DNA of 36,577 bases from an uncultured Chloroflexota bacterium (lineage in GTDB: Bacteria; Chloroflexota; Anaerolineae; Promineifilales; Promineifilaceae): contig CAADGU010000170.1 of the NCBI GenBank assembly GCA_900696625.1, forward strand, positions 1 through 36,577, read 5' to 3'. The notes under the pieces were generated by a model. The model did not search any database and was not told the origin of the DNA. It saw only the letters and a list, made by a program, of their open reading frames with translations. Both the position numbers and the translations under genes were made by a program. Of the stretch, positions 23,106 to 29,321 are shown one piece after another (the stretch's first letter is position 1; each line of letters starts with the position of its first letter).

Positions 23106-23138
23106 AGACCCTAAGGGTTTTTGAAACCCTTAGGGTCT
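23106..23138. terminator. Bidirectional terminator hairpin between convergent genes
   Basis: Arms 23106-23120 (AGACCCTAAGGGTTT) and 23124-23138 form a perfect 15-bp stem with a 3-nt loop. The stop codon of the minus-strand gene lies in the right arm and the S9 stop is 2 bp before the left arm. The word AGACCCTAAGG is shared with the hairpin at 4907. Confidence 0.75.
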
Positions 23139-25319
23139 TCTTGCCAACTGCCGAATAGCCAACAGACCAACGATGATCATGCCTGCCGTCACCGCCCATT
23201 TACCCCGGTTGGAATTTGAGGAACGCACCCCCTTCGCCTGCACCGGCATGGCCGCCAGCTTTGCCCCGCTCTCCTGCTGCACACGGGCCAGGGCAGCCGG
23301 GTCGCGGCGCAGTTGATCGGCCAGCGCCCGCTTTTGCGCCGCCATCTCGTCCGTTACGTGTTCGCCAAAGGAACGCAGCCCGGCAATCTGAAACTCGTGC
23401 TTTTTGAAGAGGCGGTATATTTCCTTGACCCGCTCCATACTGATGTTACGGCCAAGCGTGTAATCCTCGAAACGGCCGTCCATGGCCAGCAGCGCCGTCT
23501 CCGCCAGGCAGGCATAGGCCGTCTTTGGCGGCAGACCGATGTCGTAGCCAAAATCAATGTCCCCCGGAATCAGCACCTCGCCGCTTTCAATCACCAGCAC
23601 ATCCGGCCGTAAGGCCGCCTCCTCTTTGCTGATGTCCGGCGGCCGGGCCACGTCACAAATCACCGCCCCTGGCTTGCACTTGCTGATGTCTACAATGCGC
23701 TGCCCAAAGGCCGACGTGGCCGTCACAATCAGGTCACACAATCCCACAAATTCATCGGGACGGGTAGCAATGGTCACCGTTGACCCCGGCGTTTCTGCCT
23801 GAATGGTTCGTTTCAAGTCAATCAGCTTTTCCGGCTCAATAGAGACCAGCACCACGTCATAAATCGCCTGGGCCAGCAGCCGCGAACAGACTGAGCCAAT
23901 GGAACCGGTTGCGCCAATGATCATCACCTTGCCTTTGGTCAGGTCAGTGGCGCCCATTTTCACCACCGCCTGTTTGGCCGCTTCCAGTGTCGCCGCCACC
24001 GTCAGGCTGTTGCCGCTGGTGATGGCGATGTCTGCTTCGTGGGCGACGGTGATGCCGGCATCGCCGATGACGCTGGTAAACGCACCCAATCCCATAATCC
24101 GCGCCCCTTTGCGCTCGGCCATGAGCGCGGCCTGGCGCAGCCGGTTATAGGTAAAGCGCTCGTTGTGGCGCATCATCTGGCGCGGCGTGGCCCCCAGACT
24201 GATGAGAATGCCTTCCACGCGCTGCCCGGTGTTGGGCGATTGGCCGCCGGTAATACGCGAGAGATACAGCGGCGGCAGATAGGCGGCGACGGCTTCTACC
24301 AGGCTGTCTGGCAAATAGCGCGTCCAGCGGAAGTATTTGTGTTTATGCACAAAGCCCAGATGCAGGGGGTGAATGACAAAGGCGAAACGGTTGATGCCGG
24401 TTTCTTCGGGCTGCAAGGTGTGGATGGCCGGCGTCCATTCAATGTCGGCCATCAGGTCAAGGAAGGCATCTTCGTTAAGGGCGGCTTCGGGGTCTGGTTG
24501 GAGAGTGGTGAGGATGGCTTCCAGGGTGGCAGCGGAGGCGGGAATACGGCCGTATTCCCCCACCAATCCCGGCATCAATTCCACCACCAATGCCACGCCC
24601 CGCATCTGCAAATCGGCCAGGTCTTCGGCGGTGGCATATTCCACTACCACCGTCTTGTGCTTCAGTTGTGGCGGGGCAAAACGGCGAATGACGCTGATGT
24701 CCCCGGCAACCACATCCGCCCAGACAAAGGGGGCGCCGCTGCTTTCCGGGGCTACGCCGTTGGGGGTGGGGTAAAGACGGCCGTACTCCATTTCCTTCAG
24801 CCGGTCCAATGACGGCGGCGCGGCCTGGTTGCGGCTGCGGCGACCACCAATACCCGGCGCACCGGGCAGGCCAAAATAGATGAATGGGTCAGCGTAGCGT
24901 AAATCACAACCACGCTTTTCCAGGGCCTGCGCCAGCCCGTTGTGGTTCAGGCCGGGCGTCATTAGCACGTGTTTGCGGCTGAAGATGCCCGGTTGGGCGC
25001 GGTCGGCCAGGATGACGGCCCACCGTTCTAGCCCGGCGCGAATGATACGGCCGTCCAGCACCGGTGTGGTTTGTACGGCCGTAATTACTTGCTGCCCCCA
25101 GGCATGTTCCCGACGCGCCGGCCCCAACTCCAGCGTCAGGGGCATATCGTTCAGGGCAATGGCGGTGGCACGGCCGTCGTATTCAGCCAGCAACGCCTGC
25201 GCCTGCGCCATATCACCATCACAACTTTTATGCTGCAAAGCAAAAGACTCCCCTAAAAATGAAACCGTCTCGACCCGCTCCTCTTCCGCCTGCCAGTGTA
25301 AAACCAGAATTTCCTTCAT
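23130..25319 (-). CDS. Acyl-ACP/aldehyde reductase-like dehydrogenase with extra N-domain and C-terminal membrane tail
   Basis: A 729-residue protein. Residues about 312-650 align by eye with cyanobacterial long-chain acyl-ACP reductase: [12 protein letters not shown] opening, LGAFTS (411-416), TSGNS (434-438), Rossmann GATGSIG (469-475), and [14 protein letters not shown] with Cys604 where the catalytic cysteine lies in that enzyme, then TLGRNIS. Residues 1-310 have no match I recognise, and about 705-725 form a single membrane helix ([15 protein letters not shown]) followed by basic RQLARRP, a tail-anchor layout absent from the cyanobacterial enzyme. The likely activity is NADPH-dependent reduction of an acyl thioester to an aldehyde (inference). 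The start at 25319 follows GAGG; an earlier in-frame start at 25358 is less likely. No aldehyde-deformylating oxygenase is visible nearby. Confidence 0.78.
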
Positions 25320-25342: not shown

Positions 25343-25368
25343 GTAGTAGGCGATTCATCGCCTATTAC
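25343..25368 (-). repeat. Hairpin in leader of the acyl-reductase-like gene
   Basis: GTAGTAGGCGA (25343-25353) and TCGCCTATTAC (25358-25368) form an 11-bp stem with one wobble and a 4-nt loop, extended by TTTGT/ACAAA flanks. It lies 24 bp upstream of the start codon. The remaining spacer to 25464 shows no gene. Confidence 0.5.
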
Positions 25369-25464: not shown

Positions 25465-28437
25465 TTAGCGTTTCATCACTACCAGGGTGATGTCGTCAAA
25501 TTGGGGGGTGTCACCGGCGTGGACGTGAATGGCCTGGGTCACGGCCGTGACAATATCAACGGGCTGGCGCTGCCGGGCTGCCTCCACCGTCACCCGCAGC
25601 CGGTCCAGGCCAAATTCGTCAAAATCCTCATTCATCGCCTCTGTTACCCCATCGGTATACAAAACCAGCGTATCCCCCTGACGGAATACCGTTTCCCGCC
25701 GTTCAATTTGCACCTGCGGCAGCACCCCCAGGGCAATACCCTGCGTGGTCAGCATTTGCACCTGACCATCGGCGCGCAGCAGCAGCGGCGGATTGTGCCC
25801 GGCATTAGCATAGGTCAGCACTTCCTTGTGCGCGTCCCAGACCGCATAAAACACGGTCACAAACAAGTCAGACTGGGCGTCTTTGTCAATGATCTCGTTG
25901 GCGCGAATCAGCGTATTGGCCGGATCGGTGCGGTTAAAGGCAATGGTGCGCAAAATGGTGCGGCTGAGGGCCATAAAGATGGCCGCCGGTACCCCCTTGT
26001 CGGCCACGTCGGCAATAAGAATTCCCCACTTACCATCAGACAGTTCCATAAAATCATAAAAATCACCGCTCACCTGGCGCGCCGCCTGCCAATAACCGGC
26101 CACCTGGCAGCCGGTAATGGCCGGGTTGTCACGTGGAATCAGGCTCGCCTGAATTTCACGGGCCACGTCCAATTCCCGCTCCAGCCGATCCCGTTCGGCC
26201 GCTTCCTGGTAAAGCTGGTGGTTGACCACGGCCGTGGCCGCCTGATGGGCAATACCGGTGAGGATGTTCAAGCGGCGGTGTGGCAACTGTGGCTGCGCCC
26301 CCACCAACATCAGCCCCACCAGTTCACCCCGCGCCGTCAGCGGAAAAGCGCAGGCCGACGAGGTGCGGAACACCCGCTCCAACCAATGGGGCAGGCCAAT
26401 TGTCTTAAAATCGCCCGTGGCAATTTCCGTATGCGTCAGCAGGCCAGGGGCTAACGATTGCATCTCATCATGATCCACTGCCAGCGTTTCCAGCAGCCCG
26501 CGCTCCATCTCACCGATGCCGTAGCTGGGGCCGGGGTGAAAAAGGTGGCGCACATTGTCCCAAATGAGAATGACGGCCGATTCCACTCCCACCAGCAAGG
26601 GAATGAGGCGCACAATGGTGGAGAGGATTTCGTTCAGGTCGGTGAGACTGTTCACGGCGGCAGCTACCTGAAAAAGGGCGGTGTTTACCCAGGCTTCCTC
26701 CTGTTGGGCCGTGCGTAGTTGGGCATTTTCCAGCGCCCGCGCTGTTTGCCCGGCAATATCTTGCAGCAGTTCATTCCGGCGGGAGAAAGCGGCTGCGCCA
26801 TGGCCCGCCCCGGCCACGCCATCCACCAGCATCACGCCTAACATTTGCTGTCCGGTCGCCAACGGCTGGATGGTGATCCGGGTAAGGGGCAGATCATGGG
26901 GCTGGTTCACGGCCGTTTGCAGCCAGGCCGGTATTCTGGATGTGGCAATCGGCTCCTGACATTCAAGCACGGCATCCAACATCGGCCATTCACCCAACCG
27001 CACCCGCACCGGGCACACCTGGCGCCCTGCCTGGGCTTCATGGCCGTAGACGGTCATGCAGTTGTACGCCTGTGCCTCTTCATCCCATAAGAGCGTGGCG
27101 CAAAAAGAGACGCCCAGCAGCATCACAGCCAGCCGGGTCACACTTTCCAGCATTTCATCGGGGGAATCGGCGTGGCCGATGGCTTCGGCCACCTGTAACT
27201 GCGCCGTGGTCAGCCAGGCCTGCTCCCGCTGCCGCGCCAACTGCTGCGTTTTGTGGATGGCAATGGCAGTTTCGGCCGCCAATGTTTCCAGCGTCATTTT
27301 TTCAATACTGGTGAAAAAACCAGGCTGTGGGCTTTGTACGTCTAATACACCCAGCAATTCGTCATCCACCTGCAAAGGGATAGCCATTTCGGCGCGGGTG
27401 CTGTCTTCCAGCACTCCCCAGCGGTAAACAAAACGATCATCATGGCGGGTGTCGTTGCTGATGACGGTCTGGCGGGTAGCCACGGCCGTGCCCACCAACC
27501 CTTCGCCAGAGGCAACTTCCAGATGAAGGTTCATCAATTCGGGCCGGCTGCTGGCCTGCATGACAACAGTGGCGTCATGGTCATCTGTACGGCCGTTGCC
27601 GTCTGTACGGCCGTTGCCGTCTGTACGGCCGTTGCCGTCTGTACGGCCGTTGCCGTCTGTACGGCCGTTGACACCAAAAATCGTCACCAGATGAAAACCA
27701 AAGGTCGAAGCCGTCAGATTCACCACCTGCTTGAAAATCTCATCCTGGCTCTGCACCCGGCCAATTTCGCGGCCAATTTCCCCCACCAGTTCCAACTGCG
27801 CTGCCCGCTTTTCTGCCTGGGCAAAGAGGCGGGCATGGGCGATAGCCGCCGCCGCCTGGTTGGCCAAAATCATCAACCGGCGTAAATCTTCCTCGTTAAA
27901 CCGGTTGGGCTGGTCGCTTTGGGCAGCAATCACCCCCAATGCCTCTTCACCACTAATCAAGGGGATGAAGATGCCGGAACGCGGCGGCGTATCGCTGATG
28001 TAACGCGGGCGGGCGGGCAGGCGGGACATCTCCTTCTCAAAATCATGGATGAGGAGCGGTTGTTTGCTTTCACGCACCCAACCGACAATGCCCGTGCCTT
28101 CGCGCAGGTCAAAAGTTTGCGGTGTGGGTTGTTGACGGCTGTTGATGCACCAGTAATAGATGTGATACAACGACTGCTCAAAAAGGCCAATTTGCAGCGT
28201 GCCATTATCAATCACCTTGCCACTTTCGGTGGCAATCAGGGCACATAAGGCATCTACATCCAGTTCGGCTTCCACAATGGCCCGCCCCGCCTCGCTCAGG
28301 GACTCTAACTCAGCTACCCGCGCCAGCAGCAGTTGCCGCGAGCGATAGCGGCGCACGGCAATATAGGTTGCCAGTAACATGGCCCCTAGAAAAATGCCCA
28401 GAGAGAGCAGCGGCATGGAAACAGAGCCGGTGTCCAT
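25465..28437 (-). CDS. GAF-domain SpoIIE/RsbU-type PP2C phosphatase
   Basis: A 990-residue protein that would dephosphorylate the STAS antagonists encoded upstream. There is one membrane segment (about 8-28), then a linker helix and roughly four GAF-like sensor domains (about 55-190, 210-385, 400-560, 575-730). A coiled stretch LERELDVAREIQASLIP leads into the SpoIIE phosphatase (about 760-985) with SGDFYDF, IADVADKG, AGHNPP, YTDGVTEA and DDITLVV, containing the metal-binding aspartates. A five-fold NGRTD repeat (257-285) interrupts GAF domain 2, made by an in-frame 18-bp tandem repeat. The ATG at 28437 has no clear ribosome site. It is the last gene of the partner-switching operon. GAF ligands are unknown. 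Confidence 0.9.
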   Translation of the reverse strand: MDTGSVSMPLLSLGIFLGAMLLATYIAVRRYRSRQLLLARVAELESLSEAGRAIVEAELDVDALCALIATESGKVIDNGTLQIGLFEQSLYHIYYWCINSRQQPTPQTFDLREGTGIVGWVRESKQPLLIHDFEKEMSRLPARPRYISDTPPRSGIFIPLISGEEALGVIAAQSDQPNRFNEEDLRRLMILANQAAAAIAHARLFAQAEKRAAQLELVGEIGREIGRVQSQDEIFKQVVNLTASTFGFHLVTIFGVNGRTDGNGRTDGNGRTDGNGRTDGNGRTDDHDATVVMQASSRPELMNLHLEVASGEGLVGTAVATRQTVISNDTRHDDRFVYRWGVLEDSTRAEMAIPLQVDDELLGVLDVQSPQPGFFTSIEKMTLETLAAETAIAIHKTQQLARQREQAWLTTAQLQVAEAIGHADSPDEMLESVTRLAVMLLGVSFCATLLWDEEAQAYNCMTVYGHEAQAGRQVCPVRVRLGEWPMLDAVLECQEPIATSRIPAWLQTAVNQPHDLPLTRITIQPLATGQQMLGVMLVDGVAGAGHGAAAFSRRNELLQDIAGQTARALENAQLRTAQQEEAWVNTALFQVAAAVNSLTDLNEILSTIVRLIPLLVGVESAVILIWDNVRHLFHPGPSYGIGEMERGLLETLAVDHDEMQSLAPGLLTHTEIATGDFKTIGLPHWLERVFRTSSACAFPLTARGELVGLMLVGAQPQLPHRRLNILTGIAHQAATAVVNHQLYQEAAERDRLERELDVAREIQASLIPRDNPAITGCQVAGYWQAARQVSGDFYDFMELSDGKWGILIADVADKGVPAAIFMALSRTILRTIAFNRTDPANTLIRANEIIDKDAQSDLFVTVFYAVWDAHKEVLTYANAGHNPPLLLRADGQVQMLTTQGIALGVLPQVQIERRETVFRQGDTLVLYTDGVTEAMNEDFDEFGLDRLRVTVEAARQRQPVDIVTAVTQAIHVHAGDTPQFDDITLVVMKR
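27589..27668 (-). repeat. 18-bp tandem repeat inside the phosphatase gene
   Basis: Five ACGGCCGT octamers start at 27589, 27607, 27625, 27643 and 27661, exactly 18 bp apart, with the intervening TGCCGTCTGT identical. On the coding strand each unit encodes NGRTDG. The unit is a multiple of three, so copy-number changes keep the frame. Confidence 0.95.
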
Positions 28438-28453
28438 AGAGTGGAAGTAATTG

Positions 28454-28487
28454 GGTAATTGAGTAATTACCCAATTACTCAATTACC
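28454..28487 (-). repeat. Hairpin repeat between STAS and phosphatase genes
   Basis: Arms 28454-28468 and 28473-28487 are 15-bp perfect inverted repeats (GGTAATTGAGTAATT) with a 4-nt loop. The words recur every 7-8 bp. The STAS stop codon adjoins the arm. Confidence 0.8.
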
Positions 28488-28834
28488 TATTTACCTTTCT
28501 TCACCGCCCGTTGCGCGGCTATGAGTGTCGGGTGAATTTGAAAGACTTTATCAAACCCAACCATGGTAAAAACTTCTTGCAGGCGATCATTCAAGCCACA
28601 CAATAAGACATCGCCATCTTGCTGTTTGGCGCGCCGCCAGGCAGAAACCAGGCAGCGCAGCCCACCGCTGTTAATGTAACTGGCCTGAGAGAGGTCTACA
28701 ATGAGGACGGTACGGCCGTCATCCAACAATTGATTGAGCGCCGTCTCCAATAATGGGGTCTGGCTCTGGTCTAAACGGCCGTCTGCCCGCACCAGCCATA
28801 CATCACCGTGCAAAGATTCTTGTTGAATTGCCAT
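28487..28834 (-). CDS. STAS-domain anti-sigma factor antagonist
   Basis: A 115-residue single STAS domain. VLIVDLSQASYINSGGLRCLVSAWRRA is the conserved helix-loop with the phospho-acceptor position at Ser56. In such proteins the anti-sigma kinase phosphorylates this serine, and a PP2C phosphatase restores the active form. The start at 28834 leaves the upstream repeat uncoded; an in-frame start at 28882 lies in the hairpin and is unlikely. No ribosome site is visible, so translation may be low or coupled. It lies between the anti-sigma kinase and the phosphatase in one operon. Confidence 0.9.
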   Translation of the reverse strand: MAIQQESLHGDVWLVRADGRLDQSQTPLLETALNQLLDDGRTVLIVDLSQASYINSGGLRCLVSAWRRAKQQDGDVLLCGLNDRLQEVFTMVGFDKVFQIHPTLIAAQRAVKKGK

Positions 28835-28843
28835 AGTGTGATG

Positions 28844-28897
28844 CGTGAAACGTGATGCGTGATGCGTGAAAAGACGCATCACGCATCACGTTTCACG
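28844..28897 (-). repeat. Perfect 24-bp hairpin built of heptamers
   Basis: Arms 28844-28867 and 28874-28897 are perfect 24-bp inverted repeats with a 6-nt loop. Each arm is built of GTGATGC and GTGAAAC words every 7 bp. It fills the gap between the anti-sigma kinase stop and the STAS start within the operon, with no T-run. Confidence 0.9.
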
Positions 28898-28898
28898 T

Positions 28899-29321
28899 TT
28901 ATTCGATCACCTTCACCAACACCAACGTATTGCCATCATCTTCAAATTGGTAGCGAACCTCATCCATTAGCTTGCGCATGAAATGAACACCCAGGCCGCC
29001 CACGCGGGGAAAATCGGAGGTACCGTTGGCAACATCTTCGGGAATGGGGACCGGAACCTCGTCGGGGTCAAAGCTACGGCCGTTGTCGTGAATGGTAATG
29101 ACAAACCGGCCCGCCTGCACTTCCCAACTGAGGCGAATCTGCCCCACATCTTCCGCGCCATAGGCGTGTTCGATGACATTTGTACAGGCTTCATCACAAG
29201 CCAGTTCTACGTGGAACACGGCCGTGTCATCCAACCCGGCCTGCGCCGCCCCCGCCGCCACAAACTGGCATGCCTGTTGAATCCTATCGTAACGTCCGGG
29301 AATGATGAGGGTATCACCCAT
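28899..29321 (-). CDS. Anti-sigma regulatory factor, RsbW-type Ser kinase
   Basis: A 140-residue GHKL-ATPase-fold protein. The N-box ELACDEACTNVIEHAY (39-54) carries Glu44 and Asn48, DNGRSFDP (79-86) is the G1 box, and GGLGVHFMRKLMD (108-120) is the G2 box. Members of this family bind a sigma factor or other partner and phosphorylate the STAS antagonist. Flanking STAS genes on both sides support the role. Start ATG 29321 has no obvious ribosome site; the preceding sequence is pyrimidine-rich. The partner sigma factor is not encoded in this window. Confidence 0.92.
   Translation of the reverse strand: MGDTLIIPGRYDRIQQACQFVAAGAAQAGLDDTAVFHVELACDEACTNVIEHAYGAEDVGQIRLSWEVQAGRFVITIHDNGRSFDPDEVPVPIPEDVANGTSDFPRVGGLGVHFMRKLMDEVRYQFEDDGNTLVLVKVIE

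Follow-up and report, generated by a model that had tools for sequence, protein, structure and literature searches.

The stretch of DNA analysed here, a Chloroflexota contig piece of 36,577 nucleotides (the window), carries a gene for a 729-aa protein in which an N-terminal domain, a reductase core of the acyl-ACP reductase (AAR) type and a hydrophobic C-terminal tail are joined, an architecture that we confirmed to be real (Table 1). The protein is probably a membrane- or lipid-granule-associated acyl-thioester reductase that feeds wax-ester or related neutral-lipid synthesis. That the core reduces thioesters is predicted with good confidence, while a role in wax-ester or neutral-lipid supply is favoured on balance.

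The open frame, of 729 codons plus stop, is on the minus strand. A program-made ORF offers a longer start upstream at 25358; the ATG at 25319 was preferred because the purine-rich AGAGAGAGGCGG lies just upstream of it and because it agrees with the start in most relatives. The window is contig C170 of a Chloroflexota draft genome (6.95 Mb, 641 contigs, 95% complete). Dozens of full-length orthologues (53-94% identity) show that the fused gene is not a product of chance, and near-identical copies came from MAGs labelled Chloroflexi/Anaerolineae. In a quick tree the fused proteins formed essentially one clade (SH-aLRT 100), within which one member (L096) represents a secondary loss of the N-domain and another (L036) a truncated contig. 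Fused genes were also present in genomes that may be those of Chloroflexus aurantiacus, Roseiflexus RS-1 and Herpetosiphon. The fusion is conserved and widespread across Chloroflexota, in line with the non-cyanobacterial lineage proposed by an earlier note on this DNA. A plasmid collection yielded matches only to PigE/TamH-like and other core-only proteins. Two MAGs labelled Myxococcales (L030, L034) carried a fused form lacking the hydrophobic tail, by transfer or mis-binning.

Table 1 Features of the fused gene and its upstream neighbour (window coordinates).
Feature	Position	Strand	Basis or remark
Whole gene: N-domain, AAR-type thioester reductase, C-terminal membrane tail	23130..25319	-	729 aa
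N-domain (residues 1-305) with a Cys-less AAR-like fold and homologues in a standalone ~300-aa family	24405..25319	-	model, homology search
N-domain loop PGLNHNG (122-128), where the dinucleotide loop would lie	24936..24956	-	alignment; topological equivalence from DSSP
Ala-Ala at residues 263-264, where the topological counterpart of the Cys604 helix begins	24528..24533	-	putative equivalence
AAR/PigE-type thioester reductase domain, residues 306-660	23340..24404	-	sequence profiles and fold
Dinucleotide loop GATGSIG, residues 469-475	23895..23915	-	alignment to AAR GATGDIG
Cys604, equivalent of catalytic AAR Cys294 / PigE Cys296	23508..23510	-	alignment
C-terminal hydrophobic helix, residues 702-726, then basic C-terminus	23142..23216	-	model and relatives
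Upstream neighbour, GAF-SpoIIE phosphatase, not thought part of the enzyme	25465..28482	-	kept within genus only

The whole protein was modelled with good confidence (pLDDT 91.5, pTM 0.87; AlphaFold2, input of 65 sequences from the window and loci). The core model superposed on AAR 6jzq with a Z score of 33.5 (rmsd 2.6 Å, 326 aligned residues) and on the Carmabin TAD 9e4s with a Z score of 33.4 (rmsd 3.6, 352 aligned; both VIA-align). Its dinucleotide loop and Cys604 aligned with GATGDIG (162-168) and Cys294 of Synechococcus AAR, and among relatives 37 of the 39 fused and all 13 standalone AAR-like proteins retained the Cys. The AAR fold, a GxxGxxG loop and a Cys at the 294 position were therefore all found in the core, so that the Rossmann motif and active-site Cys named in the earlier note both held up. 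Its assignment to the AAR family stood as far as fold and Cys are concerned, although the nearest relatives proved to be PigE/TamH and standalone Chloroflexota AAR-like genes and not the cyanobacterial enzyme. In profile searches, the PigE N-domain model matched the core with an E value of 6.8e-55, while the AAR model TIGR04058 gave the proposed family match (E 1.7e-19) but stayed below its curated cut-off (70.3 against 449.7 bits). The PigE equivalog NF053554 scored 186.8 bits compared to the 850 required of a full-length hit, and a Pfam search found no class III aminotransferase domain (Aminotran_3) in the protein. A PDB sequence search with the core ranked likewise (PigE 8e-33, AAR 3.5e-14). 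As judged from these comparisons, the core is nearer to the PigE/TamH thioester reductases than to cyanobacterial AAR; thioester reduction has been shown for PigE (PMC8341465).

Residue roles and numbering were taken from work on AAR, which forms an acyl-Cys (PMC7089970). The three Arg residues that make up the NADPH 2'-phosphate pocket of AAR (R189, R193 and R314) correspond to I494 (lost), K498 (conservative) and R624 (kept) in the fused protein. Arg at 494 was kept in 12 of 13 standalone Chloroflexota AARs, and position 495 was acidic in 31 of 39 fused proteins. Loss of the AAR Arg189 together with an acidic residue after the second Rossmann strand suggests NADH as the cofactor in many fused lineages; in its solved structure, the Carmabin TAD binds NADH. 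Both the Cys604 and the Gly loop were lost in one genus (g6; L061/G030 and L062/G010) in which the N-domain persists, and these two proteins with a degenerated reductase domain are possible pseudo-enzymes.

The C-terminal membrane-type helix of the earlier note was found in the model and is near-universal among Anaerolineae relatives. A hydrophobic helix of about 20 residues, followed by R/K-rich residues, closes nearly all fused proteins of the Anaerolineae type, and both the hydrophobic character and the R/K residues were kept while the sequence of the tail drifted. A tail-less branch comes from other families and classes of the phylum.

The window gene itself does not lie beside lipid genes, as SpoIIE and a convergent S9 peptidase adjoin it. 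The neighbouring SpoIIE, STAS, HATPase and S9 peptidase genes were rejected as functional partners, since their conservation stops at the genus. The GAF-SpoIIE phosphatase, STAS and HATPase anti-sigma-like genes stand in a row (25465-29321) as a partner-switching regulatory module.

Across relatives, SCP2, PhaR/phasin, SDR, PlsC, Fe-ADH or patatin genes were found within 8.5 kb at 12 of 44 distinct fused loci, with two or more such neighbours at 8 of the 44 loci with flanks, compared to none of 17 standalone AAR loci and one of 34 standalone N-domain loci. A WS/DGAT gene directly follows the fused gene at one locus (L178, ATGA overlap) and adjoins it by coordinates at another (G357:C54). Among 59 relatives, WS/DGAT was present in 25/25 genomes with the fusion and in 9/34 without it and, outside the window's family, in 2/2 and 0/22, respectively, although none of these counts is independent of descent; the standalone AAR showed no association with WS/DGAT in the same 59 relatives. 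In a sample of the phylum, WS/DGAT occurred in 6/6 genomes with tailed fusions and 0/13 with only the tail-less form; for five of the 13, and for the tailed copy of G357, frame length or neighbours served to judge the tail, and these counts, too, are not independent of descent. The fused gene keeps company with wax-ester-making genes and is therefore a good candidate for a missing storage-wax step; its gene company speaks more for wax-ester or neutral-lipid metabolism than for alkanes or the wholly undescribed chemistry that had been suggested before. A PhaR-type regulator having phasin-like neighbours also occurs in the window's own genome (G000:C498, L163), far from the window gene.

The same neighbourhoods could be read differently, with the aldehyde or alcohol going into ether lipids or another membrane lipid instead of wax esters. 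Most clusters have a PlsC-type acyltransferase and an SDR without WS/DGAT, FarA- and FcrA-type reductases are tied to ether lipids elsewhere, and WS/DGAT is missing from the genomes with only the tail-less form; however, the WS/DGAT adjacency, the tight co-occurrence and the phasin/PhaR neighbours favour a storage lipid, and we consider the ether-lipid route unlikely, if worth keeping in view.

For the preferred wax-ester or neutral-lipid reading, we propose that Cys604 of the core would accept the acyl group of acyl-ACP or acyl-CoA and that the acyl-enzyme would be reduced with NAD(P)H to the fatty aldehyde, as the fold, loop and Cys imply, while the hydrophobic tail would anchor the protein to the membrane or to a lipid body. 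Judging from the gene company, the aldehyde may be reduced onward by neighbouring Fe-ADH or SDR enzymes, with the N-domain as another possible agent, before WS/DGAT or PlsC-type acyltransferases would esterify the product to a wax ester or related neutral lipid. Wax-ester storage has been reported for Chloroflexus and Roseiflexus (PMC4400912), and among the papers that we found, none assigns wax esters in Chloroflexota to an AAR-type enzyme.

Other acyl reductases were considered for the same step. FcrA, an HMGR-like alcohol-forming acyl-CoA reductase, has been tested from Ca. Promineifilum breve (PMC11948995), another member of the Chloroflexi. The window's own genome encodes a 530-aa PF00368 (HMGR-family) protein whose likeness to FcrA is one of length; the fusion is consequently not the only acyl-reductase candidate there, and the idea that it was the sole one was dropped. 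PF07993 reductases were absent from the window's genus at E<=1e-20. Five WS/DGAT genomes have an intact fusion and neither a PF07993 reductase nor an HMGR homologue of FcrA length, and both genomes whose fusion lacks the Cys and Gly loop (2/2) carry one of these alternatives.

The added N-terminal region of the earlier note was confirmed as a domain of ~305 aa with no match among Pfam and NCBIfam models. Modelled in isolation (pLDDT 89.7, pTM 0.89), it matched AAR best (Z 13.5, rmsd 4.3, 248 aligned; residues 3-301 on AAR 1-341), followed by TAD (Z 13.4) and glutamate dehydrogenases (Z 10.6). The DSSP strand and helix order corresponds, in our own reading, one-to-one with that of the core, including the hairpin before the Cys helix. 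When profiles of the N- and C-domains were compared with each other, whether or not secondary structure was included and with controls reversed, nothing significant emerged, and hhalign gave the N-domain a probability of <1% for sequence homology with AAR. One apparent profile match was discarded as an overlap artefact, as one row extended into the C-domain. In the model the protein resembles two AAR-like folds in tandem, a reading drawn from the fold since the sequence profiles show no significant homology between the domains.

Within the fused proteins, P122, N125, H126 and G128 of the PGLNHxG loop were invariant, the standalone family having a DRxG-type loop, and the position equivalent to the catalytic Cys was Ala, compared to Asn in the standalone family (Thr-Asn at 263-264). 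The N-domain has neither the catalytic Cys nor a canonical GxGxxG and so lacks the marks of an active AAR. The further invariant residues (W100, G206, P216, K222, R240, W295 and P297) indicate, together with those of the loop, that it is under selection, even though its mean pairwise identity was lower than that of the core (53.5% vs 72.9%). The suggestion that it delivers or activates the acyl group was rejected, as no activating, delivery or carrier domain of a known kind was found but a second, Cys-less AAR-like fold. The N-domain most likely serves as a conserved partner domain with a binding or regulatory role.

A more ambitious reading is that the fusion is a one-chain four-electron alcohol-forming reductase, which would do the work of FarA/AcrB without being homologous to them; the aldehyde made by the C-domain would then be reduced to the alcohol by the N-domain, which has no Cys. 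The dehydrogenase-type fold over the full length of the N-domain and the strict conservation of polar residues in fused N-domains (D89, R99, N125, H126, D144, D207, K222 and E267) argue that the domain is not decaying and are consistent with such a role, as are the five WS/DGAT genomes devoid of the alternative reductases. On the other hand, the loop is not canonical, the domain evolves faster than the core, and the second step could fall to the Fe-ADH or SDR genes in the clusters, which makes a four-electron enzyme quite unlikely. That a tandem membrane-tailed four-electron reductase unrelated to FarA/AcrB/FcrA serves wax esters across Chloroflexota is decidedly doubtful.

Both halves also occur apart. 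The own genome has a standalone N-domain homologue (C626; 28% identity, E 1.9e-27) and a separate core homologue (C273), and the ~300-aa N-domain family stands alone in many Anaerolineae, the domain being present, alone or fused, in 98 of 249 genomes. This unnamed family (L003, L068-L087, L139-L158) often adjoins a MobA-like NTP transferase, a dNK-MazG fusion or a subtilase. No shared function emerged from these neighbours or from NAD synthase, PAP2, aminotransferase and amidohydrolase genes found beside other members. The standalone AAR-like gene (L088-L104; e.g. L097, own genome C273) belongs to a conserved operon whose other genes encode DUF4388, small GTPase, alpha/beta hydrolase, V4R, hexapeptide, response regulator and histidine kinase proteins. 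A 1538-aa frame elsewhere (L102:1560-6173; G033:C19) joins AMP-binding, PP-binding carrier, class III aminotransferase and AAR-like reductase domains, the single-chain equivalent of the TamA-TamH pair, which converts a fatty acid to an amine.

That the core might instead be a relative of shikimate/quinate dehydrogenase or glutamyl-tRNA reductase with another chemistry draws on a Pfam Shikimate_DH (PF01488) score of 22.7 bits, near but short of the gathering score of 24.3. Matches to hemA (E 5e-4) and to glutamyl-tRNA reductase TIGR01035 (19.1 bits, curated 209.55) were poor, and the next folds after AAR and TAD were amino-acid dehydrogenases (Z 14.2 and below), glutamyl-tRNA reductase (13.6) and shikimate dehydrogenase (13.1). 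With AAR and PigE far stronger by sequence and fold and the Cys at the AAR position, this relationship, which the earlier note had named as the outcome that would overturn its proposal, is very improbable. A cyanobacterial-style alkane pathway from aldehyde to ADO, for which the AAR-type core could speak, is barely credible, as PF11266 (ADO) had no match in the 59 relatives, the control Synechococcus being positive, and N386, N392 and H427 stand where AAR has its ADO contacts R73, R79 and R118.

If the preferred wax-ester or neutral-lipid reading is true, tandem AAR-like folds with a tail would form a new architecture through which Chloroflexota, among them lineages from mats and activated sludge, obtain fatty aldehyde or alcohol for storage lipid. 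This work points to a gene open to deletion in culturable Chloroflexota and defines a ~300-aa family beyond the current Pfam and NCBIfam models.

Among known systems, cyanobacterial AAR (TIGR04058; 6jzq, 6jzy) shares the core's fold, GATGxIG loop, catalytic Cys, Arg314 and core length. At ~23% identity, the fused protein differs by its AAR-like N-domain and tail, by having neither ADO nor the ADO contacts nor Arg189, and by an alignment in which Tyr247 is not kept. PigE (prodigiosin) and TamH (tambjamine) are the curated family closest to the core, have the same Cys and are likewise domain-fused reductases, but their partner is a PLP aminotransferase, absent from the Chloroflexota protein, which has another partner and gene context. 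The TAD of the Carmabin pathway (9e4u, NADH-bound) is as close in fold as AAR, including the helices after the core, but belongs to another biosynthetic pathway and has ~20% identity. The standalone Chloroflexota AAR-like gene (G000:C273, L002) has a homologous core (40% identity, Cys and loop) but no N-domain or tail, and sits in a different conserved operon. FarA/AcrB and FcrA resemble the fused protein in the proposed role and the association with WS/DGAT, but are not homologous by Pfam, as neither PF07993 (FarA-type) nor PF00368 (HMGR-type) was among its matches.
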